64,000 nucleotides of DNA from Streptomyces sp. WMMC500. GTDB lineage: Bacteria > Actinomycetota > Actinomycetes > Streptomycetales > Streptomycetaceae. This document shows positions 36,883 to 52,111 of the stretch, in pieces. How positions within the stretch are numbered: the first letter of the stretch is position 1; each line of letters starts with the position of its first letter. The position numbers were made by a program, and so were the translations under genes. The notes under the pieces were generated by a model that had not been told where the DNA came from, searched no databases, and saw only the letters and a list, made by a program, of their open reading frames with translations. The stretch is from the NCBI RefSeq assembly GCF_027497195.1, contig NZ_CP114905.1, forward strand, positions 7,914,001-7,978,000, given 5' to 3'.

Positions 36883-38923
<2,041 letters not shown>

Positions 38924-38927
<4 letters not shown>

Positions 38928-39796
38928 CCAGTGTCCCGCTCGGCCTGCCGCGCCGCCGCGTCGCGTTCGAACTCGACGGCGAGACCGTCCACGCCCTGGA
39001 GGGCGACACGATCCTCGACGCCTGCACCGCCGCGGGCAAGGACATCCCGACCCTCTGCTACGGCGACACGCTCACGCCCAAGAACGCCTGCCGGGTCTGC
39101 GTCGTGGAGGTCGAGGGCTCCCGTACGCTCGCGCCCGCGTGCTCGCGCCGCGCGGAGCCGGACATGAAGGTCCGTACGGACAGCGAGCGCGCCCGGCACA
39201 GCCGCCGGCTGGTCCTCGAACTCCTCGCCTCCTCCACCGACCTGTCGACGACGCCCCACGTCGCCGGCTGGATCGAGGAGTACGGCGCGGAGCCCGACCG
39301 CTTCGGCCCGGACGCCGCGACCGTGGCCGGCCGCGGCGCGAAGGTCGACAACGACCTCTACGTGCGCGAGTACGGCAAGTGCATCATGTGCTACAAGTGC
39401 GTCGACGCCTGCGGCGACCAGTGGCAGAACACCTTCGCCATCGCCGTCGCCGGCCGGGGTTTCGAGACGACGATCGCGGTGGAGCACGACGGCCCGCTGC
39501 CCGACTCGGCCTGCGTCTACTGCGGCAACTGCATCGAGGTCTGCCCCACCGGGGCGCTCAGCTTCCGGACCGAGTACGAGATGCGCGCCGCCGGCACGTG
39601 GGACGAGGAGGCGCAGACGGAGACGACGACGGTGTGCGCGTACTGCGGGGTGGGCTGCAACCTCACGCTGCACGTGCAGGACAACCGGATCGTCAAGGTC
39701 GGCTCGCCGCACGACAACCCGATCACGCGGGGCAACCTGTGCATCAAGGGCAGGTTCGGCTATCAGCACGTCCAGAACGTCCAGGGTGCGGAGTGA
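38924..39796 (+). CDS. formate dehydrogenase Fe-S protein with N-terminal part of catalytic chain
   Basis: A 290-aa electron-transfer subunit. Its [2Fe-2S] ferredoxin domain has ligands Cys45, Cys56, Cys59 and Cys73. Two [4Fe-4S] clusters follow (Cys153/156/159/163 and Cys197/200/203/207), then the molybdopterin Fe4S4 domain (Cys238, Cys241, Cys245, Cys273; VCAYCGVGCNL and NLCIKGRFGYQHV). In usual NAD-linked formate dehydrogenases this whole block is the N-terminus of the catalytic subunit. Here it is a separate gene placed after the catalytic and diaphorase genes, overlapping the latter by 4 nt. It ends where the catalytic chain at 34930 begins, so the two must assemble to bind the full cofactor set. 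Confidence 0.9.
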
Positions 39797-39802
39797 TCGG
39801 CG

Positions 39803-40657
39803 ATGGGTCGGGTGACGGTGCGGCGTCCGGTGACGCGGGTGCGTGGCGGGCGGGTGGAGCGGCGGCCGGACACGCTGGTGGCGGAGGAGCCGCTGGAGAT
39901 CCGGGTGGGTGGTCGGGCGTTGGCGGTGACGATGCGGACGCCGGGGGACGACTTCGCGCTGGCGGCGGGTTTTCTGGTCAGTGAGGGGGTGCTGGCCCGG
40001 GGCGGGGAGTTGGCGGGGATCACGTACTGCGCGGGTGCCGTGGACGGTGCGGAGGGCGGGAACACGTACAACGTGGTGGATGTGCGGCTGGCGGCGGGGG
40101 TGCCGGTGCCGGACGTCACGCTGGAGCGCAACGTGTACACGACGTCGTCGTGCGGGCTGTGCGGCAAGGCGAGCCTGGACGCCGTCCGCACCACCACCCG
40201 CTGGCCGATCGCCGACGACGGTGAGACGAAACTCACTCCGGACGTCCTGGCCGCGCTGCCGGACCGGTTGCGGGCGGGGCAGCGGGTCTTCGACCGCACC
40301 GGCGGGCTGCACGCCGCCGCCCTGTTCACCCCGGCCGGTGAGCTGGTCGATCTGCGGGAGGACGTGGGCCGGCACAACGCGGTGGACAAGCTGGTCGGGC
40401 GGGCGTTGCAGCAGGACCGGCTGCCGTTGGGCGAGACCGTGCTGATGGTCTCGGGCCGGGCGTCCTTCGAGCTGGCGCAGAAGGCGGCGATGGCCGGGAT
40501 CCCGGTACTGGCCGCGGTCTCCGCGCCGTCGTCGCTGGCCGTCGATCTCGCGGTGGAGACCGGGATGACGCTGGTGGGCTTCCTGCGCGGCGACACCATG
40601 AACGTGTACGCGGGCGAACACCGCATCGCCCCGCACCGTACGGTCGCGGGCGTCTGA
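39803..40657 (+). CDS. fdhD: formate dehydrogenase sulfur-carrier protein
   Basis: A 284-aa FdhD. RTPGDDFALAAGFLVSEGVL, the catalytic SSCGLCGKASL loop with the sulfur-carrying Cys pair, REDVGRHNAVDKLVG, SGRASFELAQKAAMAG and TLVGFLRGDTMNVYAG are all canonical. It passes sulfur from a cysteine desulfurase to the bis-MGD cofactor, which formate dehydrogenase needs for activity. It starts 6 nt after the Fe-S gene and ends the operon. Codon choice shifts abruptly from C-ending to G-ending at this gene, which may mark a separate origin from the upstream genes. Confidence 0.93.
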   Translation: MGRVTVRRPVTRVRGGRVERRPDTLVAEEPLEIRVGGRALAVTMRTPGDDFALAAGFLVSEGVLARGGELAGITYCAGAVDGAEGGNTYNVVDVRLAAGVPVPDVTLERNVYTTSSCGLCGKASLDAVRTTTRWPIADDGETKLTPDVLAALPDRLRAGQRVFDRTGGLHAAALFTPAGELVDLREDVGRHNAVDKLVGRALQQDRLPLGETVLMVSGRASFELAQKAAMAGIPVLAAVSAPSSLAVDLAVETGMTLVGFLRGDTMNVYAGEHRIAPHRTVAGV

Positions 40658-40875: not shown

Positions 40876-41502
40876 GTGACCGGGAAGAGAACGCTGGGCC
40901 CTCGGGTGCGGCCACTCGGGCCCCGCCCCGGCCGTCCCGACACCAGGGCGGACATCATCCGCGCCGCCAAGCGCATGTTCGCCCGCGGCTACGCGTCCTG
41001 CAGCCTGCGCGCCGTCGCGCGCGAGGCCGGCGTCGACCCGTCCCTTCTCGTCCAGTTCTTCGGCAGCAAGGAAGGGCTGTACCTCGCCGCCATCGCCGAC
41101 GTGATGCGCCCCGACGAGGTACTCGGGCAGATCGTCGGCGAAACCACCGAGGGGCTGGGCCGGCGGCTGGCCGCCTACTACTTCGATCTGTGGGACGACG
41201 CCGAGACCAGGTGGCCCTTTCAGGCGATCCTGCTCTCCGCCGCCTCGTACCAGCCGGCCGCCAACGTGCTGCGCGACTTCATCACCCGCGAACTGGTCGC
41301 ACGCGTCGCCGCCCGCGCCGTCAAGGACCGCGCGGAGCTGCGCGCCGGCCTCGCCGGCTCCCACCTCGTGGGCACCGCCCTGGTGCGCTACGTGGTGCGC
41401 TTCGGCCCGCTCGCCGAGTTGCCCCGGCGGGAGCTGGCCGAGATCGTCGGCGGCACCATCGACGGCTATCTCTTCGGCCCGCTCCCGGCCGCCGCGCACT
41501 AG
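40876..41502 (+). CDS. TetR-family regulator preceding the lar locus
   Basis: A 208-aa protein with a TetR helix-turn-helix (SLRAVAREAGVDPSLLVQFFGSKEGLY) and a C-terminal TetR ligand domain. The GTG start at 40876 fits the domain; there is no strong binding site. A GCAGA-N7-TCTGC inverted repeat about 25-40 nt upstream could be its operator, near a TTGACG -35-like box at 40826. It lies 165 bp before the di-iron gene on the same strand and is the only regulator of the lar-type locus. Confidence 0.88.
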   Translation: MTGKRTLGPRVRPLGPRPGRPDTRADIIRAAKRMFARGYASCSLRAVAREAGVDPSLLVQFFGSKEGLYLAAIADVMRPDEVLGQIVGETTEGLGRRLAAYYFDLWDDAETRWPFQAILLSAASYQPAANVLRDFITRELVARVAARAVKDRAELRAGLAGSHLVGTALVRYVVRFGPLAELPRRELAEIVGGTIDGYLFGPLPAAAH

Positions 41503-41667: not shown

Positions 41668-42585
41668 ATGGCCTTCGACATACCGGGCTACATCAACACG
41701 GCCGGACGCGTCCAAGTCGACGACCTGGACCTCGACGCGTTCGCCGAGCGCCCCCTGTCCGCGGAGGCGCTGCGCTGTCTGCGGTACATGTCGGACGTGG
41801 AGAGCCACACGGTCTGCTACCTGCGGGACGTGCTGGTCACCCCGTCCCACCGGGACCCGGACGTGACGGCGTTCATGTCGATGTGGGCCTTCGAGGAGTT
41901 CTGGCACGGCGAGGCGATCGACTCCGTGCTGCGCGCCCACGGGCAGAAGGCCGACTACGACCACATCCGCGAGGTGCGGGAGGCCCAGGGGCTCAGGGAC
42001 CGGCTGGCGCCGATCTACCAGTCCATCGCGGCCAACGCCATCGGCGACGACTTCGTCGCCGTGCACATGACGTGGGGTGCCATAAACGAGTGGTCCGCGC
42101 ACGCCGCGTACGGCAGCCTCATCGACAAGGAGCAGCACCCCGAACTGACCAAGCTGCTCGGCCGGATACAGCGCCAGGAGTCCCGGCACCTCGCGTTCTA
42201 CGCCAGCCAGGCCAAGGAGCGCCTGGAGCGCTCCCAGCGCGCCCGTTCGCTGGCCCGCTGGGTGACCGAGCGCTTCTGGCAGCCCGTCGGCTCCACCATC
42301 CAGCCGAGGGAGGAGACCCGCTTCGTGCTGCGGCACCTGCTGGGTGACGAGGCGGGCGCCGCCGCCGTGCGCAAGATCGACGAGAAGGTGCACAAGCTGC
42401 CCGGCATGGACGGGCTCAACCTGGTCCAGCGCGGCGTCGCGGACTTCGGCGCCGGCGTGCCGGTGGCCGGCGTCGACACCGCGCGGCCCGGCTCGCGCAA
42501 GCGGCTGGTCGCGGGCGCCGCGCTGGTCGCGGGTGCGGCCGGGATCGCCGCCGTACGACGTCGATCGGCGGGCTCGCACGCATGA
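41668..42585 (+). CDS. ferritin-like di-iron protein (acyl desaturase/oxygenase type)
   Basis: A 305-aa helical protein with the full carboxylate-bridged di-iron set: Glu45, Glu77-x2-His80 (AFEEFWHGEA), Glu141 with His145 (INEWSAHAAY) and Glu171-x2-His174 (QESRHLAFYA). The spacing resembles acyl-ACP desaturases and related oxygenases, which act on fatty acyl chains. A C-terminal hydrophobic Ala/Val stretch (RLVAGAALVAGAAGIAAV) suggests membrane attachment. GGAGGGG stands before the ATG. It overlaps larE by 4 nt, so it belongs to the nickel-pincer operon. The substrate is unknown; the link to fatty acyl reductase and acyltransferase genes points to a lipid. Confidence 0.85.
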   Translation: MAFDIPGYINTAGRVQVDDLDLDAFAERPLSAEALRCLRYMSDVESHTVCYLRDVLVTPSHRDPDVTAFMSMWAFEEFWHGEAIDSVLRAHGQKADYDHIREVREAQGLRDRLAPIYQSIAANAIGDDFVAVHMTWGAINEWSAHAAYGSLIDKEQHPELTKLLGRIQRQESRHLAFYASQAKERLERSQRARSLARWVTERFWQPVGSTIQPREETRFVLRHLLGDEAGAAAVRKIDEKVHKLPGMDGLNLVQRGVADFGAGVPVAGVDTARPGSRKRLVAGAALVAGAAGIAAVRRRSAGSHA

Positions 42586-43571
42586 CGGACGCCGGCCCCG
42601 CCGCGCACCACGGCCCCGCCGGCCTGCGCGGGTCCACCGCCACCGGCACCGGTGACCCCGCGGCGGCCGCCCCCGCCGCGGGGCCGGCCCTCGCGGAGCC
42701 CGGTGCCGCGGCCGCGGCCGCCGCGCTGCTGGCGGAAGTCGGACGACTCGGCAGCGTCGCGGTGGCATACTCCGGTGGCGTGGATTCCACGGTCGTCCTC
42801 GCCGCGGCCGTACGCGCCCTCGGCCCAGGCCGGGCCGTCGCCGTCATCGCCGACTCGCCCGCGCTGGCCCGCGGCGAGTTGGCCCTCGCCCGCGACACGG
42901 CGGCGGACCTCGGCGCCGAACTCGTCGTGCTGGACACCGACGAGCTGTCCGTCGCGGGCTATCGTGCCAACGCCGGCGACCGCTGCTACTTCTGCAAGCA
43001 GACCGTCCTCGGCCGGGTCGCCGGCTACGCCGCGGAGCACGGCTTCGCCCACGTCGCCACCGGCACCCACCTCGACGACCGCCGCGCCGCCCACCGCCCC
43101 GGGCTGCGCGCCGCGAAGGAACTCGCCGCCGCCGAGCCGCTGGCCGCCGCCGGGCTCGGCAAGGCCGCGGTGCGCGCGCTCGCGCGGGCCTGGGGCCTGC
43201 CGGTCGCGGAGAAGCCCGGCATGCCCTGCCTGGCGTCCCGCATCGCGGTGGGCGTCCCCGTCTCCAAGGACCGGCTGCACCTGGTCGAACGGGCCGAGGA
43301 GCGGGTCCGCGAGACGCTGGACGAGCACCGCGTGGGCGCCCGCGACGTGCGCGTACGCCTGCTGAAGCAAGGCTTCCGGATCGAACTGGACGCGCCCGCC
43401 CACCGCGAGGTCGCCGCCGCGCACGGCCTCGGCGACACGCTGCTGCGCGAGGTCGCCGCCGTCGGCCCGCTCGGCGAGGGCAGCCTCGCCCCGTACCGCA
43501 CGGGCGCGGTCAGCACCGCCGCCCGCGCCGCCGCCCGCACCGCCTCTCCCGATGGAGCGCCGGCGCGATGA
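42582..43571 (+). CDS. larE: nickel-pincer cofactor synthesis sulfur transferase
   Basis: A 329-aa PP-loop enzyme. The ATP loop is AVAYSGGVDST (64-70), followed by GDRCYFCK (Cys135, Cys138), GTHLDDRR and the sacrificial-type cysteine Cys216 in KPGMPCLASRIAVG. LarE adenylates pyridinium-3,5-biscarboxylate mononucleotide and converts its carboxylates to thiocarboxylates. An N-terminal 50-residue Ala/Pro/Gly extension is unusual and probably disordered. It overlaps both neighbours by 4 nt. Whether it uses its own Cys sulfur or a cluster held by several Cys cannot be told from sequence. Confidence 0.92.
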   Translation: MTDAGPAAHHGPAGLRGSTATGTGDPAAAAPAAGPALAEPGAAAAAAALLAEVGRLGSVAVAYSGGVDSTVVLAAAVRALGPGRAVAVIADSPALARGELALARDTAADLGAELVVLDTDELSVAGYRANAGDRCYFCKQTVLGRVAGYAAEHGFAHVATGTHLDDRRAAHRPGLRAAKELAAAEPLAAAGLGKAAVRALARAWGLPVAEKPGMPCLASRIAVGVPVSKDRLHLVERAEERVRETLDEHRVGARDVRVRLLKQGFRIELDAPAHREVAAAHGLGDTLLREVAAVGPLGEGSLAPYRTGAVSTAARAAARTASPDGAPAR

Positions 43572-44317
43572 GCGACCCGCACGGCAGCGCCCTCGACGCC
43601 ACCGGCACCCCGCCGGGGGAGGCGGGGCTGCTGGACGGCGTCGTCGCCGAAGTCGGCGACTTCGCCCGCCTCGACGTGGACCGGCGCCGCCGCACCGGCG
43701 TGCCCGAGGTCGTCTACGCGGACGGCAAGACCCCCGAGCAGACGCTCCGGCTCCTCGCCGAACTGCGCCGCCGCACGCCCGACTTCCCGGCGCTGGCCAC
43801 CCGCTGCCCCGAGGAGGTGCTGCGAGCCGCGCCAGACGCCTTCGCGGACGAGCCTGTACGGGTCGACGCGCGCGCCCGCACCGTCACCGTGGGCCCGCTG
43901 CCGGCCCCCCGCGGCACCGTCGCCGTGCTCACCGCCGGCACCAGCGACCTGCCCGTCGCCCGCGAGGCCGTCGCCACCCTCGACGCCCTCGGCACCGGCT
44001 CCCGGCTCTACGCCGACGTCGGCGTCGCCGGCCTGTCCCGGCTGCTCGCGGTGCTCGGCGACGTGCGCGCCGCGGACTGCGCGATCGTCGTCGCGGGCAT
44101 GGACGGCGCGCTCCCGAGCGTCGTCACGGGCCTGCTCACCGCCCCCGTCGTCGGCGTCCCCACCAGCGTCGGCTACGGCTTCGCCGACGCCGGCCGCGCC
44201 GCCGCCGGCGCGATGCTCGCCTCGTGCGCCCCCGGGCTCACGGTCGTCAACATCGACAACGGCTTCGGCGCCGCCGTCCACGCCGCCAAGGTCGTGGGGG
44301 TGCGTGCCGGTGACTGA
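43568..44317 (+). CDS. larB: pyridinium-3,5-biscarboxylic acid mononucleotide synthase
   Basis: A 249-aa LarB with the AIR-carboxylase-like C-terminal domain: VVYADGKTPEQTL, VAVLTAGTSDLPVAREA, IVVAGMDGALPSVVTGL, VGVPTSVGYG and Cys220 in LASCAPGLTVVNIDNGFGAA, equivalent to the Cys that forms the covalent adduct in Lactobacillus LarB. It carboxylates and hydrolyses nicotinic acid adenine dinucleotide as the first step of the nickel-pincer nucleotide. It overlaps larE by 4 nt. Confidence 0.93.
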   Translation: MSDPHGSALDATGTPPGEAGLLDGVVAEVGDFARLDVDRRRRTGVPEVVYADGKTPEQTLRLLAELRRRTPDFPALATRCPEEVLRAAPDAFADEPVRVDARARTVTVGPLPAPRGTVAVLTAGTSDLPVAREAVATLDALGTGSRLYADVGVAGLSRLLAVLGDVRAADCAIVVAGMDGALPSVVTGLLTAPVVGVPTSVGYGFADAGRAAAGAMLASCAPGLTVVNIDNGFGAAVHAAKVVGVRAGD

Positions 44318-44460
44318 ACAGCTCGGCGGACGCCCGGCCTTCGCGTACGGCGTCGCCCACCCGGGCCAGGCGGCCCCGTGCGCAGGTGTGGCGGGGGAGA
44401 CGTACGGGAAGGGCTCTCCCAGCGATCATGAACGGGACCTGCCGGCGGGGGTGGCACACG

Positions 44461-45717
44461 GTGGCTGAGGGGACGGCCGCGGCCCATCTCGACTGCACCG
44501 CGGGGGTGGCCGGCGACATGCTGCTCGGCGCCCTGCTCGACGCGGGCGCAGACCTCGCCGCGGTACGGGACGCGGTCGCGGCGCTCAAGGTCGACGGGCT
44601 CGGCGTGTCCGTGGCGCGCGACCGCCGCGGCGGCTTCGGGTGCAACCGCGTCACCGTCCACCGCCCCGCCGTCCCCGACCGCCACCGCCACCTCGCCGAC
44701 GTCCTCGCGGACCTCGACCGCGCGGCCGGCGCCGGACTCGCCGCGCGGGCCGCGGACTTCGCCGCCCGCGTCTTCCGGCTGCTCGCCGAGGCCGAGGGCA
44801 AGGCGCACGGCACCACGGCGGCGGAGGTCCACTTCCACGAGGTCGGCGCCTTCGACGCGCTCGCGGACGTCGTCGGCTGCGCCGCCGCACTCGACGACCT
44901 CGGCCTGCTCGCCCCCGGCGCCGCCGTCACCTGCTCCCCGCTGGCCGCGGGCAGCGGGGAAGTCGACTGCGCGCACGGCCGGATGCCCGTCCCCGTACCT
45001 GCGGTGCTGCACCTGGCAGCCGCCGGCGGCCTCGCGCTGACCGGCGGCGGGCTCGCCGGCGAGCGCACCACGCCCACCGGCGCCGCGCTCGTCGCCGCCC
45101 TCGCCGCTCCCGGCCCGCTGCCCGACATGGCGGTACGGGCCGTGGGCACCGGCGGCGGCAGCCGCGACACCCCCGACCGCCCCAACATCACCCGCGTCGT
45201 CGTCGGCACCCTCGCCGCCCCGGCGGCCGGCGGGCCCGCCGAGGGCGAGGTCACCGTCGTGGAGAGCACCGTCGACGACCTCGACCCGCGGCTGTGGCCC
45301 TCGGTCCTCACCGCCCTGCGCGCCGCCGGCGCGTGGGACTGCTGGACCACCGAGACCGTGGGCCGGCACGGCCGCCCCGGCCGCGTCGTCACGGCGCTGT
45401 GCGCGGCGGAGGTGCGGCCCGCCGTCGCCGACGCGCTGTTCCGCCACACCACCACGCTCGGCGTCCGCTGGTCCGCCCACCGGCGCCTGATGCTGCCCCG
45501 GCAGAGCGCCGTGGTGGCCGTGGGCCCGCCCGGCGCCGAGCAGCAGGTCACCGTCAAGGTCGCCGAAGGACCCGGCGGCGCGCTCACCGTACAGCCGGAG
45601 CTGGCCGAGGCGGAGTCCGCGGCGGCCGCGCTGGGCTGGCCCGTACGCGCGGTGTGCGAAGCTGCCGCAGTCCGCTACCGGGGCGACCTGGCGGTGCCGC
45701 GGCCCGCCACCGGTTGA
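44461..45717 (+). CDS. larC: nickel-pincer cofactor nickel insertase
   Basis: A 418-aa LarC. AHLDCTAGVAGDMLLGALLDAGAD is the N-terminal hallmark. The central part has VHFHEVGAFDALADVVG, CSPLAAGSG, GRMPVPVPAVLHL and GERTTPTGAALVAAL, and the C-terminal CTP-binding domain has VVESTVDDLDPRLWP. LarC inserts nickel into the pincer nucleotide using CTP. In Lactobacillus plantarum larC is split and joined by a programmed frameshift; here it is one continuous frame. GTG 44461 was taken as start because the conserved region follows directly; ATG 44428 is possible. There is a 143-nt gap after larB. Confidence 0.92.
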   Translation: MAEGTAAAHLDCTAGVAGDMLLGALLDAGADLAAVRDAVAALKVDGLGVSVARDRRGGFGCNRVTVHRPAVPDRHRHLADVLADLDRAAGAGLAARAADFAARVFRLLAEAEGKAHGTTAAEVHFHEVGAFDALADVVGCAAALDDLGLLAPGAAVTCSPLAAGSGEVDCAHGRMPVPVPAVLHLAAAGGLALTGGGLAGERTTPTGAALVAALAAPGPLPDMAVRAVGTGGGSRDTPDRPNITRVVVGTLAAPAAGGPAEGEVTVVESTVDDLDPRLWPSVLTALRAAGAWDCWTTETVGRHGRPGRVVTALCAAEVRPAVADALFRHTTTLGVRWSAHRRLMLPRQSAVVAVGPPGAEQQVTVKVAEGPGGALTVQPELAEAESAAAALGWPVRAVCEAAAVRYRGDLAVPRPATG

Positions 45718-45778
45718 CGCCGGTCCGCACGAGAAACAGAGACCGGCATATGCAAGACCAGACCAGGGGAGGGCACGA

Positions 45779-48142
45779 GTGACGGGGACTTACCGCATCG
45801 GGCGACTCGACGACGCGCACGTCCTGCTGACCGGGGCCACCGGCTTCATCGGGCAGGCGCTGCTGGAGCGGCTGCTGTCCGGCCATCCGGGCACCCGCGT
45901 CTCGATCGTCGTCCGCCCGCGGGGCAACGGCGGCGCCGCCGAGCGCTTCCGCCGCCTGCTGCGCAAGGACGTCTTCCGCGGCTGGCGCGAGCAGGTCGGC
46001 GACGAGGCCGCGTTCGCCGAGGCGGAGCGGCGCGTCACCGTCATCGAGGGCGCGCTCGACCGGCTGGACGACGTCGAGTTCCCCGGCGACATCGACGTGG
46101 CCATCCACTGCGCCTCGTCCGTCTCCTTCGACCCGCCCATCGACGAGGCGTTCCGCAGCAACGTCTCCGGTGCCGTCGCGCTGTACGAGAAGCTGGGGCG
46201 GCAGGAGCGCCCGCCGCACATCGTGCACATCTCCACCGCGTACGTCTCCAGCGGCGGCCAGGGCCTCGTCCGCGAGGGCCGGCTCACCCACGACATCGAC
46301 TGGCGTGGCGAGCTGGCCCAGGGCCTGGCCGCCCGCGACGACGTCGAGCGCGCCTCCCGCCGCCCCGAAGTGCTGCGCAAGGCGCTGGAGAAGGCCGGCC
46401 GGGACCACGGCAAGGCGGGACCGCAGATCGCCGCCAAGGACGCCGAGGACGCGCGCCGCGCGTGGGTGGAGGAGCGGCTCGTCACCCACGGCGCCACCCG
46501 CGCCGAGATCCTCGGCTTCTCCGACGTCTACACCTTCACCAAGGCGATGTCCGAGCGCGCCGTCGAGGAACTGTGGGCGGGCCGGCCCCTGTCCATCGTG
46601 CGGCCCGCGATCGTGGAGAGCGCGCTGCGCCATCCGTACCCCGGCTGGATCGACGGCTTCAAGATGGCCGACCCGCTGATCATCGCGTACGGCAGCGGGC
46701 TGCTGCGCGACATGCCGGGACAGCCGGACACCGTGATGGACGTCGTCCCCGTCGACCTCGTCGTCAACGCCACCCTCGCCGCCGCCGCGGCCCCGCCCGA
46801 GGAGGGCGCGGAGCCGCACTACTTCCACGTCGGCTCCGGCGCCACCAACCCCCTCACGCTGCGCGACCTGTACAAGCACGTGCACTCGTACTTCCGCCGC
46901 GACCCGCTGCCGGAGAGCAGCGGCCGCGGTCACGTACGGCCGCCGTCGTGGACCTTCCCCGGCGCCTCCCGCGTGGAGTTCGCGCTCGGCGCCGGCGAGC
47001 GCGCCGCGAACTTCGCGGACAAGCTCCTCGGCCAGTTGCCCGGCACCGAGCGCACCCAGGAGTGGGCGAGCAGGCTGCACAAGGAGAAGCGCTCCCTGGA
47101 GACGCTGCGCCGCTACTCCGATCTGTACGGCGTCTACACCCGTACCGCCGTCGTCTACGACGACCGCGAGCTGCGCGCGCTGGGCGACGCGCTGCCCGCC
47201 GACCGCGCCGCCGAGCACGGCTTCGACCCCGCCGAGATCGACTGGTACACGTACCTCGAAGAGGTCCACTGCCCCAAGGTCACCGCGCCGCTGCGGGCGA
47301 GAACCGGCGGGGGCCGCACCACCCGCAAGCCGAACCCGGCCGCGCTCCCGCCCGGCGCCGCCGCCGGGGGCAGCACCGCCGCCGTCTTCGACCTGGACGG
47401 CACGATCATCGCCTCCGACATCGTCGAGTCCTACGTCTGGACCCGGCTGGCGTCGCTGCCGCGCGGGCGCTGGGCGCCCGAGCTGTTCGACCTCGCCCGC
47501 AACGCGCCCCGCTACCTGCTCGCGGAGCGGCGCGACCGCGGCGACGTGATGCGCTCGTTCTTCCGCCGGTACGAGGGCGCGCGCGCCGAGGAGTTGCGCG
47601 CCCTGGTCGCCGAGCAGGTCGGCGACGCGCTGCTGCACCGCGTGATGCCCGAGGCGGTACGCCGCATCCGGGCCCACCGCGCCGCCGGCCACCGCACCGT
47701 GCTCATCACCGGGAGCCTCGACATCCTCGTGGAGCCGCTGCGGCCGCTCTTCGACGACATCGAGGCCACCCACCTCGCCGAGCACGACGGCGTCCTGACC
47801 GGCTTCCTGCGCACCCCGCCGATCGTCGGCGAGGGCCGCGCGGCGTGGCTGCAGAGCCACGCCCGCGAGCGGGAGCTCGACCTCGGCGCCAGCTTCGGCT
47901 ACGCCGACAGCTACTCGGACCGGCCGCTGCTGGAGGCCGTGGGCAAGCCGCACGCGGTCAACCCCGACACCCGGCTGTTCCGGCATGCCAAGCGCCACCG
48001 CTGGGAGATCGCCCGCTGGGGGACGCACACCGCGAGCCGCTGGGACGCGCTCGCGGGCACCGTGATCAGCCACACCCGGCCGCGGCCCGTACGGGCCCTG
48101 CCCGCGGCCGGCCGCACCGCACCCGACGGAGAGGCCCGATGA
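45779..48142 (+). CDS. fatty acyl-CoA reductase-like SDR fused to HAD-IB hydrolase
   Basis: A 787-aa two-domain protein. Residues 10-360 are an extended SDR of the NAD_binding_4 (fatty acyl-CoA reductase, male-sterility) type: VLLTGATGFIGQALLERLL (TGATGFIG at 18-25), HCASSVSFD, catalytic Tyr251-x3-Lys255 and RPAIVESAL. A FAR_C-like middle follows. From about 530 a HAD-IB phosphatase domain begins (VFDLDGTIIASDIVESY, nucleophile Asp538), with ITGSLDILVEPL and GYADSYSDRPLL. It likely reduces an acyl-CoA to aldehyde/alcohol and removes a phosphate in the same pathway. The GTG start at 45779 has a GGGGAGGG site. Confidence 0.87.
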   Translation: MTGTYRIGRLDDAHVLLTGATGFIGQALLERLLSGHPGTRVSIVVRPRGNGGAAERFRRLLRKDVFRGWREQVGDEAAFAEAERRVTVIEGALDRLDDVEFPGDIDVAIHCASSVSFDPPIDEAFRSNVSGAVALYEKLGRQERPPHIVHISTAYVSSGGQGLVREGRLTHDIDWRGELAQGLAARDDVERASRRPEVLRKALEKAGRDHGKAGPQIAAKDAEDARRAWVEERLVTHGATRAEILGFSDVYTFTKAMSERAVEELWAGRPLSIVRPAIVESALRHPYPGWIDGFKMADPLIIAYGSGLLRDMPGQPDTVMDVVPVDLVVNATLAAAAAPPEEGAEPHYFHVGSGATNPLTLRDLYKHVHSYFRRDPLPESSGRGHVRPPSWTFPGASRVEFALGAGERAANFADKLLGQLPGTERTQEWASRLHKEKRSLETLRRYSDLYGVYTRTAVVYDDRELRALGDALPADRAAEHGFDPAEIDWYTYLEEVHCPKVTAPLRARTGGGRTTRKPNPAALPPGAAAGGSTAAVFDLDGTIIASDIVESYVWTRLASLPRGRWAPELFDLARNAPRYLLAERRDRGDVMRSFFRRYEGARAEELRALVAEQVGDALLHRVMPEAVRRIRAHRAAGHRTVLITGSLDILVEPLRPLFDDIEATHLAEHDGVLTGFLRTPPIVGEGRAAWLQSHARERELDLGASFGYADSYSDRPLLEAVGKPHAVNPDTRLFRHAKRHRWEIARWGTHTASRWDALAGTVISHTRPRPVRALPAAGRTAPDGEAR

Positions 48143-49377
48143 GCCTGGCGCTTCAGTACCACCGTTCGCCCGCGCGCTTCCTGGCCGCCCGCGGGCTCAG
48201 CCGCACCCGCAACCGTGCCGCCGGCTCGCTGGCCGGCTCGCTCGCCCCGCTGCGGCTCACCCGCGACCGGCGCGACCTGCCCAAGGGCGACGGCTGGACC
48301 CGGCTGGCGCCCAGCCTGTCCGGCATCTGCGGCTCGGACCTCGGGATGCTCAACGGCACCGTGTCGCCGTACCTGGCGGCGCTGACGTCCACGCCGTTCG
48401 TGCCGGGACACGAGGTCGTCGGCACCACCGTCGACGACCTGCCGGCCATCCCGCGCGGCACCCGCGTCGTGCTCGACCCGGTGCTGTCCTGCGCGGTACG
48501 CGGCCTGCCCGAGTGCGACGCCTGCCGCGCCGGGCACACCAACCGCTGCGACCACATCACCTCCGGGCACCTCTCGCCCGGCATGCAGACCGGCTACTGC
48601 GCCGACACCGGCGGCGGCTGGGCCCAGCGCATGGTCGCCCACGAGCACCAGCTCCGCCCGGTGCCCGACGACCTGCCGGACGAGCGCGCGGTGCTCATCG
48701 AGCCGCTGGCCTGCGCGATCCACTCGGTGCGCCGGGTGCCGATCGAGCCGGGCGCCGCGGTGCTGGTCATCGGGGCCGGCACGGTGGGTCTCTTCACCGT
48801 GCTGGCGCTGCGGCAGCTCACCGAGGCGGGCACCATCCACGTGGTCGCCAAACACGGCCACCAGCGCGAACGGGCGCTTGCGCTGGGCGCGGACGAGGCC
48901 GTGGAGCCGGACCGCGCGCTGCGCGCCGTCCGCCGGATGACCTCGGCGCTCGCCCAGCGCCCCGAGATGGGCGCGGAGTTCCTGCTCGGCGGGGTGGACA
49001 TCGCCTTCGAGTGCACCGGCGGCGGCGCCGGCCTGGACACCGCGCTGCGTACCGTACGGGCCGGGGGCACGGTCGTCGTCTCCGGCATCCCGGGGGGCGC
49101 CGACCTGACCCCGCTGTGGTACCGGGAGCTGAGCCTCGTGGGCGCGTACACGACCAGACGCCGCGAGGACGTGACGGACGACGAGCGCGACGCGGGCCCC
49201 GACGGCCGCGCCGGCACCGACTTCGACAAGGCGGTGCAGCTCGCCGCCACCGCGCCCCTGGACGGCTACGTCGAACGCTATGCGCTCCAGCAGTGGCGCC
49301 CCGCGCTGGAGCACGCGTTCGCGGCCGGCTCCGCGGGTTCCGTCAAGATCGCCTTTGACCCGACCCTGGACGGCTGA
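48139..49377 (+). CDS. zinc-dependent alcohol dehydrogenase (MDR family)
   Basis: A 412-aa medium-chain dehydrogenase. The catalytic zinc site is SGICGSDLG and PGHEVVG. Structural-zinc-like cysteines are present (CAVRGLPECDACRAGHTNRCDH), and the Rossmann fold is AAVLVIGAGTVGLFTVLALRQL. The first 45 residues (LAARGLSRTRNRAAGSLAGSL) form an extra basic segment not usual in the family. It overlaps the reductase/HAD gene by 4 nt and probably interconverts the alcohol and aldehyde or keto form of that enzyme's product. Confidence 0.88.
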   Translation: MSLALQYHRSPARFLAARGLSRTRNRAAGSLAGSLAPLRLTRDRRDLPKGDGWTRLAPSLSGICGSDLGMLNGTVSPYLAALTSTPFVPGHEVVGTTVDDLPAIPRGTRVVLDPVLSCAVRGLPECDACRAGHTNRCDHITSGHLSPGMQTGYCADTGGGWAQRMVAHEHQLRPVPDDLPDERAVLIEPLACAIHSVRRVPIEPGAAVLVIGAGTVGLFTVLALRQLTEAGTIHVVAKHGHQRERALALGADEAVEPDRALRAVRRMTSALAQRPEMGAEFLLGGVDIAFECTGGGAGLDTALRTVRAGGTVVVSGIPGGADLTPLWYRELSLVGAYTTRRREDVTDDERDAGPDGRAGTDFDKAVQLAATAPLDGYVERYALQQWRPALEHAFAAGSAGSVKIAFDPTLDG

Positions 49378-49508
49378 CCGGGCACGAATGGCAGGGTAGG
49401 GGCCGACACCGGAGTCGGCCGCCCCCCACCGCCGTACGCAGCCGCCGGGCACCCGACGCCCGCACCGCCGCCCGCTGCAGGCGCCGGCGACCACACTGAG
49501 GAGAGAGC

Positions 49509-51086
49509 GTGAGCAGACCAGGCTTCGTGCTGGAAGTCGACGAACGAACCCCGCCCCTGCTGGTGCACGAGGGCGAGAATTTCCGGCTGGAGCGGCTGCC
49601 CCACGGCACCCGGGTGATCTACCCGCCCGACTCGCTGCCCGGCATCCGCGACCTCGACGGGGTCATCCGCCGCGCGCTGCTCGAACCGCACGGCAGCGAA
49701 CCCCTGCCCGAGCTGCTGTTCGCCGGCATGCGGCTGACGATCGTCTTCGACGACCTGTCGCTGCCGCTGCCGCCGATGCGCCGGCCCGACGTGCGCCAGC
49801 GCATCATCGAGCAGGTGCTGGAGATGGCGGCGGCCAAGGGCGTCGACGACGTCGAGCTGATCGCCGCCAACGCCCTGCACCGGCGCATGACCCCGGCGGA
49901 GCTGCAGCACGTCGTGGGCGACCGGGTGTTCCGGTCGTTCTTCCCGCAGCACCTCACCAACCACGACGCGGAGGACCGCGACAACCTCGTGCACCTCGGC
50001 GACACCGCGGAGGGCGAGGAGGTCGAGATCAACCGGCGGGCGGCCGAGAGCGACCTCGTCGTCTACGTCAACATCACCTCGACGGCGATGAGCGGCGGGC
50101 CCAAGTCGGTGTCGGTGGGCCTGGCCAGCTACCGCAGCATCCGCCACCACCACAACGTGCACACGCTGCGGCACTCCCGGTCGTTCAACGACCCGCCGAA
50201 GTCGGCCATGCACCACTCGTACAACCGCATGCACGACCTGATCGGCGGCCAGGTCAAGGTGTTCACCGTCGAGACGACGCTGAACAACGACACCTTCCCG
50301 TCCGCCACCCGCTTCCTCAACAAGCGCGAGTGGGAGTGGAACTACGGCGACCAGGCCGCGTACCTCGCCTCCCGGCGCGGCAACGCGCTGATGACGCCGT
50401 CGATGCGGCGCCGGCTGTGGCACAAGACGGAGGCGCCGTACGGGGTCACGGGAGTGAACGCCGGCGCGCCGAGCGAGGTGCACCCGATCACCCTGCGCAA
50501 CGTCCACCGCCAGCAGCTCACCGAGGTGCAGGGGCAGGCCGACGTCGCGGTCTACGGCCTGCCGTACATCTGCCCGTACAACGTCAACTCGGTGATGAAC
50601 CCGATCCTGACGATGTGCCTGGGCCTCGGCTACTTCTTCAACCTCTACCTGAACAAGCCGATCGTGCGGGAGGGCGGCGTCGGGATCTTCTACCACCCGA
50701 TGCCGAACGAGTTCCACCCCGTCCACCACCCCAGCTACATCGACTTCTACGAAGAGGTGCTGGCCGAGACCACCGACCCGGCGGTCATCGAGGCCAAGTT
50801 CGAGAAGCAGTTCGCCACCGACCCGTGGTACACACACCTCTACCGCAAGAGCTACGCCTACCACGGCGTGCACCCCTTCTACATGTGGTACTGGGGCGCC
50901 CACGCAATGCAGCACCTGGGTCAGGTCATCTTCGTCGGCGCGGACCGGAGCGCGGCCTCCCGGCTCGGCGTGCAGTCGGCGTCGACGCTGAACGACGCGC
51001 TGCAACTGGCCTCGCAGACGGTGGGCACCAGCCCCTCCATCACGTACCAGCACATGCCGCCGCTGACCCTGGCGTCCGTCCGATGA
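49509..51086 (+). CDS. LarA-family nickel-pincer enzyme, divergent
   Basis: A 525-aa LarA homologue (DUF2088 plus C-terminal domain). Residues expected to hold the nickel-pincer nucleotide are present: Lys199 (MSGGPKSVSVG), with His215 sixteen residues later as in lactate racemase (Lys184/His200), and His124 (ANALHRRMTPAEL) for the first catalytic His. The second catalytic His of lactate racemase, ten residues before the Lys, is absent here (NITSTAMSGG), and the protein is about 100 aa longer. It is therefore unlikely to be a lactate racemase. GAGGAGAG precedes the GTG start. It overlaps the acyltransferase gene by 4 nt. It probably racemises or epimerises a 2-hydroxy acid or a hydroxylated lipid. 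Confidence 0.88.
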   Translation: MSRPGFVLEVDERTPPLLVHEGENFRLERLPHGTRVIYPPDSLPGIRDLDGVIRRALLEPHGSEPLPELLFAGMRLTIVFDDLSLPLPPMRRPDVRQRIIEQVLEMAAAKGVDDVELIAANALHRRMTPAELQHVVGDRVFRSFFPQHLTNHDAEDRDNLVHLGDTAEGEEVEINRRAAESDLVVYVNITSTAMSGGPKSVSVGLASYRSIRHHHNVHTLRHSRSFNDPPKSAMHHSYNRMHDLIGGQVKVFTVETTLNNDTFPSATRFLNKREWEWNYGDQAAYLASRRGNALMTPSMRRRLWHKTEAPYGVTGVNAGAPSEVHPITLRNVHRQQLTEVQGQADVAVYGLPYICPYNVNSVMNPILTMCLGLGYFFNLYLNKPIVREGGVGIFYHPMPNEFHPVHHPSYIDFYEEVLAETTDPAVIEAKFEKQFATDPWYTHLYRKSYAYHGVHPFYMWYWGAHAMQHLGQVIFVGADRSAASRLGVQSASTLNDALQLASQTVGTSPSITYQHMPPLTLASVR

Positions 51087-52111
51087 GCGGCGCGAAGGGC
51101 CCCGCCAAGGGCCGCCGGTCCGGGAAGGGCAGCCTGCGCGGCGACCTCGCGATGGTGCGGGCGGGCCGCGACTGGCGCGGCCGCGCGCTGGCCCCCCGCG
51201 GCTACCGGACCCCGGGCGGCAGCGCGGCGGGCTTCGGGGCGGGGAAGGTGGAGCAGAAGACCTTCCCCACCGCGTGGGCGCGCACGCCCGCGGCGCGCGC
51301 CGTGCGCAACGTGCTCCAGCGCGGGGTGCTCAAGCAGTACGCCTGGGCCAAGACCCGGCCGCAGATCGAGGGCCTGGACCTGCTGGAGTCGCTGCGCGGC
51401 CCGGCGATCTTCGTCGCCAACCACTCCAGCCACCTCGACACCCCGCTGATCCTCGGCTCCCTGCCCCGCCGCATCGCCGACCGCACGGCGGTCGGCGCGG
51501 CGGCGGACTACTTCTTCACCTCCACGGCGGTCAGCATCACGACCGCCCTGATGTTCAACGCGTTCCCCGTGGACCGCTACGGGTCGCGCCGCGGCGGGGT
51601 GTCGCTGCCGGCGGAGCTGATCGACGACGGCTGGAGCCTGCTGCTCTACCCGGAGGGCACGCGGTCCCACGACGGCTGGATGAGCTCGTTCAAGATGGGC
51701 GCGTCGAGGCTGTGCGTGAACATGGGCATCCCGGTCGTCCCGGTGGCGGTCCGCGGCACGTTCGCGGCCATGCCGCGCGGCAAGGCCCTCCCGACCCGCA
51801 CGGGCACGCGCCTGGTGGTCCGCTTCGGCCGCCCCCTGCCCCCGCAGGAGGGCGAGTCGGTCACCGACTTCCGCGCCCGCATGCTGCGCCACATCGCCGC
51901 CCTGTGGGCGGAGGAGGACCTGGGCTGGTACCAGTCGCTCCGCGCGGCGGAGGAGGGCCGCCTGACCCTCCCCGAGGGCCGCACGACGGCGCTCCCGCTG
52001 ACGGCGACGCCGGTGGAGCAGGGGAAGCCGGTGGCGGAGTGGCGACGGGTGTGGGAGGCGACGAGACCGTCGATGGGGGACGGCCGCCGGAAGGTGTGGC
52101 GGGACGACTGA
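51083..52111 (+). CDS. PlsC-type 1-acyl-glycerol-phosphate acyltransferase
   Basis: A 342-aa acyltransferase. Catalytic motif I is VANHSSHLDTPL (His-x4-Asp), motif II NAFPVDRYG, motif III LLYPEGTRSHDG and motif IV VPVAVRGTF. The first 60 residues are basic and Gly-rich, so they may be a membrane-binding tail. It follows the LarA-like gene with a 4-nt overlap and ends the locus. It probably transfers an acyl chain to an sn-glycerol-phosphate or other hydroxyl acceptor made by the upstream enzymes at the inner membrane face. Confidence 0.9.
   Translation: MSGAKGPAKGRRSGKGSLRGDLAMVRAGRDWRGRALAPRGYRTPGGSAAGFGAGKVEQKTFPTAWARTPAARAVRNVLQRGVLKQYAWAKTRPQIEGLDLLESLRGPAIFVANHSSHLDTPLILGSLPRRIADRTAVGAAADYFFTSTAVSITTALMFNAFPVDRYGSRRGGVSLPAELIDDGWSLLLYPEGTRSHDGWMSSFKMGASRLCVNMGIPVVPVAVRGTFAAMPRGKALPTRTGTRLVVRFGRPLPPQEGESVTDFRARMLRHIAALWAEEDLGWYQSLRAAEEGRLTLPEGRTTALPLTATPVEQGKPVAEWRRVWEATRPSMGDGRRKVWRDD

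Follow-up and report, generated by a model that had tools for sequence, protein, structure and literature searches.

In the literature covered here, the papers cited by PMC number being drawn on in part, the nickel-pincer (NPN) enzymes whose reaction is known racemise or epimerise hydroxy acids. Among the numbered groups of LarA homologues (LarAHs), no reaction or pathway is assigned to groups 14 and 15 in the covered parts of PMC12611868 and PMC7583248. Members of both groups lack the equivalent of His174, the second catalytic histidine of LarA (PMC12611868), seven racemase and epimerase assays gave no activity for a Frankia LarAH14, and such LarAHs may carry out other hydride chemistry (PMC7583248). 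Here we describe the genomic setting of a LarA homologue of this kind, hereafter LarA14, which is encoded in a stretch of 64,000 nucleotides from Streptomyces sp. WMMC500 (contig NZ_CP114905.1, positions 7,914,001 to 7,978,000; "the window"). Eight co-directional genes occupy 41668-52111 on the plus strand of the window and encode, in order, a diiron-type protein, LarE, LarB, LarC, a fatty-acyl reductase (FAR) fused to a HAD phosphatase, a zinc-dependent alcohol dehydrogenase (ADH), LarA14, and a PlsC acyltransferase.

A four-gene cassette conserved around LarA14

The last four of these genes form a real and conserved cassette around an orphan nickel-pincer enzyme, a cassette that the families of its members mark as lipid-type and that is undescribed as far as our literature searches go: no published description was found in the partial listings that these returned. 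The loci compared were 40 of the 86 over-cut-off LarA matches from 396 Actinomycetota genomes together with the best 80 of at least 584 confirmed relatives, and the resulting 120 loci were reduced to 117 by the removal of near-duplicates. The selection deliberately favors close relatives; the 18 that were aligned to the window LarA14 share 53-71% identity with it. FAR-HAD, ADH, LarA, and PlsC lie on one strand and in this order in 87 of the 92 loci with at least 4.2 kb upstream and at least 1.5 kb downstream of LarA. Taken gene by gene, and based on single-sequence queries, FAR was found in 91 of these loci, PlsC in 90, ADH in 88, and HAD in 88, a count that is lowered by the position limits of the counting script in loci without ADH (HAD is present in L061, L093, and L094, outside those limits). 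Mean pairwise divergence is lowest for LarA (0.34), followed by ADH (0.45), HAD (0.50), FAR (0.51), and PlsC (0.54), the last value being the least secure because some of the aligned frames are too long.

The association extends to whole genomes. With LarA counted over its curated cut-off and FAR-HAD at E ≤1e-40, 84 of the 396 genomes carry both, 2 carry the LarA group only, and 10 carry FAR-HAD only. FAR-HAD is thus present in 94 genomes, of which 84 have LarA over its cut-off; five of the other 10 hold LarA fragments, which raises the number to 89. A LarA fragment also occurs in one genome that lacks FAR-HAD (G277). Both this co-occurrence and the conserved gene order are far beyond chance, and they support the proposal of the initial annotation that a LarA-type enzyme is wired into an acyl or glycerolipid pathway. 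LarC was the sole Lar maturation gene searched for genome-wide; 76 of the 86 genomes with the LarA group have it.

The link to FAR-HAD, ADH, and PlsC is specific to the over-cut-off LarA group, since the set was found in none of 20 loci of divergent LarAHs (L152-L171; profile scores of 83-523 bits). Single matches at these loci were an open reading frame (ORF) on the other strand that scores as HAD/FAR (L153), a weak ADH (L162), and a LarC (L167). We had considered the divergent relatives as added support for the cassette and rejected them on this ground. Seven of them (L152-L158; 393-523 bits) form a divergent LarA branch from other actinobacterial families, likewise without FAR-HAD, ADH, or PlsC.

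The initial annotation had further taken all eight genes together as one candidate pathway, but these eight are not the conserved unit. Long flanks, of 8 kb or more upstream and 6 kb or more downstream of LarA, are available for 71 loci. The full trio of larB, larC, and larE is nearby in 19 of these and at least one of the trio in 20; the diiron gene is present in 5. The larBCE genes and the diiron gene are thus optional, and the eight-gene operon was rejected as a conserved unit. The expected linkage of the non-lar genes to the lar genes was borne out for larA; in most of these 71 loci they are unlinked to larBCE.

Active-site residues of LarA14

The window protein belongs to the orphan NCBIfam group LarAH14/15/16, and its nearest solved relatives are the single-histidine enzymes LarASp and LarABw (9q2u and 9q3j; profile E 5.5e-46 and 9.2e-36, respectively). 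K199, H215, and H124 are present in 117 of 117 loci and align, in a profile alignment, to K184, H200, and H108 of LarA, the NPN-linking lysine, the nickel ligand, and the first catalytic histidine, with residue roles as in PMC7583248. D82, at the position of Asp72, is kept in 116 of the 117 loci, and position 85, the equivalent of Arg75, is always aliphatic (Leu in 93, Ile in 22, Val in 2). In LarA, Arg75 binds both the cofactor and the substrate carboxylate. Position 190, the equivalent of His174, is Asn in 101 loci, Thr in 15, including the window protein, and Ser in 1, and the alignment shows the stretch around it to be shorter by 4 residues than that of LarA. The C-terminal domain gives no alignment to Lactobacillus plantarum LarA over the Lys298 region.

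The residues that anchor the cofactor are kept, and those on which racemisation of alpha-hydroxy carboxylates depends are lost. Two-base racemisation is unlikely given that the His174 equivalent is replaced in every one of the 117 loci, and the active-site changes as a whole argue against ordinary alpha-hydroxy-acid racemisation. The hydroxylated lipid or lipid precursor that the initial annotation proposed as substrate is one option rather than an established substrate. We consider it likely that NPN is bound by LarA14 and that the enzyme catalyses hydride transfer on a lipid or a precursor of one, as opposed to the racemisation of a free hydroxy acid. Several Frankia loci carry the cassette (e.g., L102, L105, and L109), so that the Frankia LarAH14 assayed previously (PMC7583248) is probably the cassette orthologue, an assignment that follows from locus content.

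Partner enzymes

Over residues 13-527, FAR aligns with a fatty acyl-CoA reductase of known structure (7eoz; E 4e-51; PDB search), and the residues of its nucleotide-binding TGxTGFxG motif and of Y251xxxK255 are more than 95% invariant. HAD is the sole extra domain of the protein, in which Pfam finds no ACS or ACP domain. The solved relatives of the ADH, all matched at E 1e-15, are 4ej6 (of unnamed function), ketose reductase 1e3j, YahK 1uuf, and butanediol dehydrogenase 6ie0, and C64, H91, E92, C126, C129, and C137 are more than 95% invariant. PlsC matches the 1-acyl-glycerol-3-phosphate acyltransferase 5kym (E 1.7e-15; PDB search) and conserves the residues of NHxSHxD and PEGxR.

The ADH may be replaceable in the cassette, as suggested by two loci of Streptomyces altiplanensis and Streptomyces sp. 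DH37 (L093 and L094). The gene order at these two loci is larE-larB-larC-FAR-HAD-larA-plsC, with ADH undetected.

The operon in the window and its accessory genes

The coordinates of the operon and of an upstream regulator gene are collected in table 1. The co-directional arrangement of the eight genes, with four overlaps of 4 nt (42582-42585, 43568-43571, 48139-48142, and 51083-51086), is as the initial annotation had described it, and its identification of LarE, LarB, LarC, a LarA-type enzyme, a FAR/HAD fusion, a zinc ADH, and PlsC is confirmed by Pfam and NCBIfam models. LarB, LarC, and LarE are thus all encoded in the window by curated family models, with the start of LarC uncertain among 44386, 44428, and 44461. 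The source genome, a single contig of 8.6 Mb, encodes a single Lar_N protein and a single LarC, so that the cofactor pathway appears to serve LarA14 alone.

Table 1. Genes of the LarA14 operon and the adjacent regulator in the window.
Feature	Coordinates	Strand	Basis
TetR-family regulator, probably local	40876..41502	+	PF00440 and PF17920 above cut-off; same strand, upstream of operon
Putative ferritin-like diiron-type protein, accessory, 305 aa	41668..42585	+	Sub-threshold matches and conserved ligand-type residues
LarE sulfur transferase, CXXC-C type	42582..43571	+	TIGR00268 240 bits (cut-off 150)
LarB, cofactor biosynthesis	43568..44317	+	NF033503 238 bits (cut-off 175)
LarC, LarC1 and LarC2 as a single ORF	44386..45717	+	PF01969 355 bits; TIGR00299 173 (cut-off 90); NF052512 97 (cut-off 50)
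FAR (residues 1 to ~510) fused to HAD-IB phosphatase (~533-740), 787 aa	45779..48142	+	PF07993 and PF12710 above cut-off; TIGR01490
Zinc medium-chain dehydrogenase (ADH), polyol/ketose-reductase type	48139..49377	+	PF08240/PF00107 above cut-off
LarA homologue, LarAH14/15/16 group	49509..51086	+	NF052592 907 bits (cut-off 740); PF09861 145 bits (cut-off 23.3)
PlsC/AGPAT-type acyltransferase	51083..52111	+	PF01553 above cut-off; TIGR00530 below its cut-off

The first protein of the operon, which the initial annotation called a ferritin-like di-iron protein, is a more delicate case. It has no Pfam or NCBIfam match at E 0.001, and its sub-threshold matches are to FA_desaturase_2 (E 0.0025), R2, and rubrerythrin. 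On the other side, E45, E77xxH80, E141, and E171xxH174 are conserved among nine sequences, and some of the 120 relatives listed bear the source name "ferritin-like domain-containing protein" or "rubrerythrin," most of the others being unnamed or hypothetical. The ferritin-like di-iron assignment is thus supported, not proven. The gene occurs in 7 of the 117 loci, each of which also has larE.

In LarE, C135, C138, and C216 are more than 95% invariant among 32 sequences. The three cysteines resemble those of the LarE of Thermotoga, an oxygen-labile [4Fe-4S] protein (PMC9283937); the host here is presumably aerobic.

No extra neighbor is universal among the 120 loci. This survey passed its ORFs through a codon-GC filter, at the risk of losing some true genes, and seven cluster representatives were checked against Pfam. 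The commonest extra neighbor is a TetR ORF (24 of 120 loci, in 16 of the 24 on the strand opposite LarA), followed by an AMP-binding gene of acyl-CoA ligase type (15 of 120, mostly in Nocardioides; e.g., L112, 15292-17085). Three of the 120 loci (L037, L047, and L048) have an ORF of CDP-alcohol phosphatidyltransferase type upstream of FAR, and Pfam confirms one of the three; that of L047 (4698-5378) is directly upstream of FAR. Such a neighbor beside FAR would suit a phospholipid product, and we take it as a hint. Just upstream of the operon in the window, at 37892-40657, is a formate-dehydrogenase-type locus whose frame has 2Fe-2S, 4Fe-4S, and molybdopterin Fe4S4 domains and stops right after the Fe4S4 domain, with FdhD directly next to it.

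Taxonomic distribution

The distribution of the LarA gene is uneven. It is near-core in the family of genome G041, taken as Rubrobacteraceae by way of the named relative R. radiotolerans P0143 (79% identity). In this family 30 of 39 genomes are over the cut-off and, at E 1e-60, the gene is present in 21 of 22 good genomes, in one of these as a fragment. It is rare in Streptomycetaceae (6 of 200). Nocardioides, Kribbella, Frankia, and Actinomadura carry the cassette as well. The title of a 2023 paper, referenced in PMC11150832, names mixed ether/ester lipids as dominant in five Rubrobacterales species. PF06050 (the HGD-D domain) was found in none of 12 genomes, which include the window genome and eight Rubrobacteraceae; we take this family to be the marker of the Ger/PlsA route.

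Proposed pathway and alternatives

The best explanation that we can offer, and one that we put forward tentatively as a reading of gene content, is that FAR-HAD, ADH, LarA14, and PlsC may constitute a cassette for lipid biosynthesis in actinobacteria that has a nickel-pincer enzyme at its center; in the window, larEBC and the diiron gene are placed in front of it. Its product could possibly be an alkyl-ether glycerolipid. Ether lipids are our first guess because of the parallel with the elb operon of Myxococcus discussed below, the near-core status of the gene in Rubrobacteraceae, the reported ether/ester lipids of Rubrobacterales, the absence of PF06050 from the 12 genomes, and the FAD-oxidase_C proteins of G041, the sole genome examined for AGPS. 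None of the three such proteins of G041 looks like AGPS: for one the best match is glycolate oxidase (E 2.9e-80), with AGPS far weaker (E 4.2e-22; PDB search), and the other two were judged by eye to be FeS-fused dehydrogenases. The mammalian ether route comprises FAR, alkyl-dihydroxyacetone phosphate (DHAP) synthase, keto-reductase, and acyltransferase functions (PMC9131029). Three of these functions would be covered in the cassette by FAR, by the ADH with its likeness to ketose reductases, and by PlsC, so that by analogy LarA14 would be left in the place of the synthase. We therefore propose, with each step predicted from family membership, that FAR would supply a fatty aldehyde or alcohol and that LarA14 would occupy the place of alkyl-DHAP synthase. 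With H124 acting as the only base, NPN would abstract hydride from a glyceryl acceptor at one of its alcohol groups; this would permit a C-O bond to form with the fatty alcohol or aldehyde before the hydride is returned. The ADH might then reduce a keto intermediate, PlsC would acylate sn-2, and the HAD domain would take off the phosphate. A bolder form of the proposal, which we regard as rather unlikely, is that LarA14 is the first non-isomerase nickel-pincer enzyme, one that joins a fatty alcohol or aldehyde to a glyceryl backbone by withdrawing a hydride for a time, and that it defines an oxygen-tolerant alkyl-ether route in actinobacteria with no need of AGPS, ElbD, or Ger/PlsA. The ether reading, if true, would point to the way in which aerobic Rubrobacterales build their ether lipids and would extend the NPN cofactor to a new type of chemistry.

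Several observations weigh against this proposal. None of the cassette genes codes for an established ether synthase, and to our knowledge there is no case of ether formation by the NPN cofactor. For Acidimicrobiia, no link to ether lipids appeared in the literature listing. The cassette itself is not uniform: in two Rubrobacteraceae loci (L067 and L069) it is spread out, with no PlsC within the 20 kb fetched, and ADH is undetected in three of the 92 loci (L061, L093, and L094). LarC is undetected in 10 of the 86 LarA-group genomes, two of which are more than 95% complete (G263 and G294), and both of these have the LarA/FAR cassette; the missing LarC match in them may reflect a divergent LarC, missing sequence, or the lack of a cofactor. 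Finally, the Fisher test of co-occurrence between LarA and FAR-HAD (p = 8.5e-72) is uncorrected for phylogeny.

Other readings of the cassette have to be set beside the alkyl-ether proposal. LarA14 might isomerise, or shift a hydride within, a small polyol or sugar-phosphate backbone that the ADH oxidises or reduces and PlsC acylates, with FAR giving a separate fatty-alcohol part, and the product would then be a non-ether acylated polyol lipid. The resemblance of the ADH to polyol dehydrogenases fits such a scheme, as do the nearest solved relatives of LarA14, which are single-histidine LarAHs with suspected carbohydrate substrates (PMC12611868). These relatives are, however, distant and differ in genomic context, and FAR-HAD travels with LarA14, which places the enzyme beside acyl reduction; we find this reading somewhat unlikely. 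Closest to known LarA chemistry, which takes place at C2 of a 2-hydroxyacyl group, is a route to long-chain 1,2-diol or 2-hydroxyacyl lipids, in which LarA14 would invert or isomerise a 2-hydroxyacyl thioester or aldehyde, FAR would reduce the product, PlsC would acylate the 2-hydroxyl, and HAD would take off the phosphate. A thioester substrate would account for the lost carboxylate-binding arginine, FAR and PlsC fit, and Thermomicrobium roseum has 1,2-diol membranes whose synthesis, according to the covered part of PMC2615216, was still to be clarified in detail. This route is nonetheless unlikely in our view, given that the His174 equivalent is replaced throughout and that no 2-hydroxylase-type gene stood out among the recurrent neighbors in the survey of the 120 loci, with seven cluster representatives checked against Pfam.

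Two further readings would give LarA14 a lesser or a more familiar part. FAR and an acyltransferase are typical of wax and alcohol pathways, and the AMP-binding ORFs noted above would also suit a fatty-alcohol or wax/storage-lipid cluster in which the role of LarA14 is incidental or regulatory. This seems improbable for an enzyme that is the most conserved member of the cassette and that accompanies FAR-HAD in most of the genomes that have it. Several source annotations label relatives as lactate racemase. That LarA14 is an ordinary racemase of lactate or hydroxy acids whose neighbors are there by chance is highly improbable. The conserved gene order, the inactivity of the Frankia LarAH14 in its seven assays, and the changed Arg75 and His174 equivalents speak against it, and on the last ground a plain lactate racemase is disfavored.

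Comparison with known systems

The lactate racemase operon of lactobacilli, with which the initial annotation compared the locus, shares with the window the pathway of LarB, LarC, and LarE. Its LarA belongs to another group and has other partners, whereas catalytic residues are lost in the window LarA, and the comparison is of limited use for an enzyme from an orphan group whose Frankia member showed no activity.

Another system for comparison is the elb ether-lipid operon of Myxococcus xanthus, in which FAR, HAD, and AGPAT functions likewise stand together in an aerobic bacterium (PMC9131029). This likeness is one of families. In the covered description of elb (ElbB, a HAD; ElbD, with FAR, ACS, ACP, and AGPAT), no LarA or NPN genes appear (PMC9131029), and the fusion to ACS and ACP that marks ElbD is not found in the cassette FAR, which is instead fused to HAD.

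The solved enzymes LarASp and LarABw share with the cassette LarA the lysine and the nickel-binding histidine, with the second catalytic histidine changed to asparagine, as it is in most loci here. H455 of the cassette LarA is conserved at the position of LarASp H401, as counted along the alignment. The cassette enzyme differs from LarASp in having an aliphatic residue where LarASp has K76, at the position of R75, and from both solved enzymes in a His/Asn stretch that is 4 residues shorter in the alignment; moreover, their context is one of carbohydrate and that of the cassette LarA is one of lipid.

LarA groups 14 and 15 (NF052592) are, by the curated cut-off, the same family as LarA14. The neighboring COGs of each LarAH group are given in Table S1 of PMC7583248, and part of the cassette context may already be tabulated there. 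To the covered accounts of these groups we add the partnership with FAR-HAD, ADH, and PlsC, so that an orphan LarA group now has defined partners and its substrate becomes testable among acyl chains and glycerolipids instead of free hydroxy acids.

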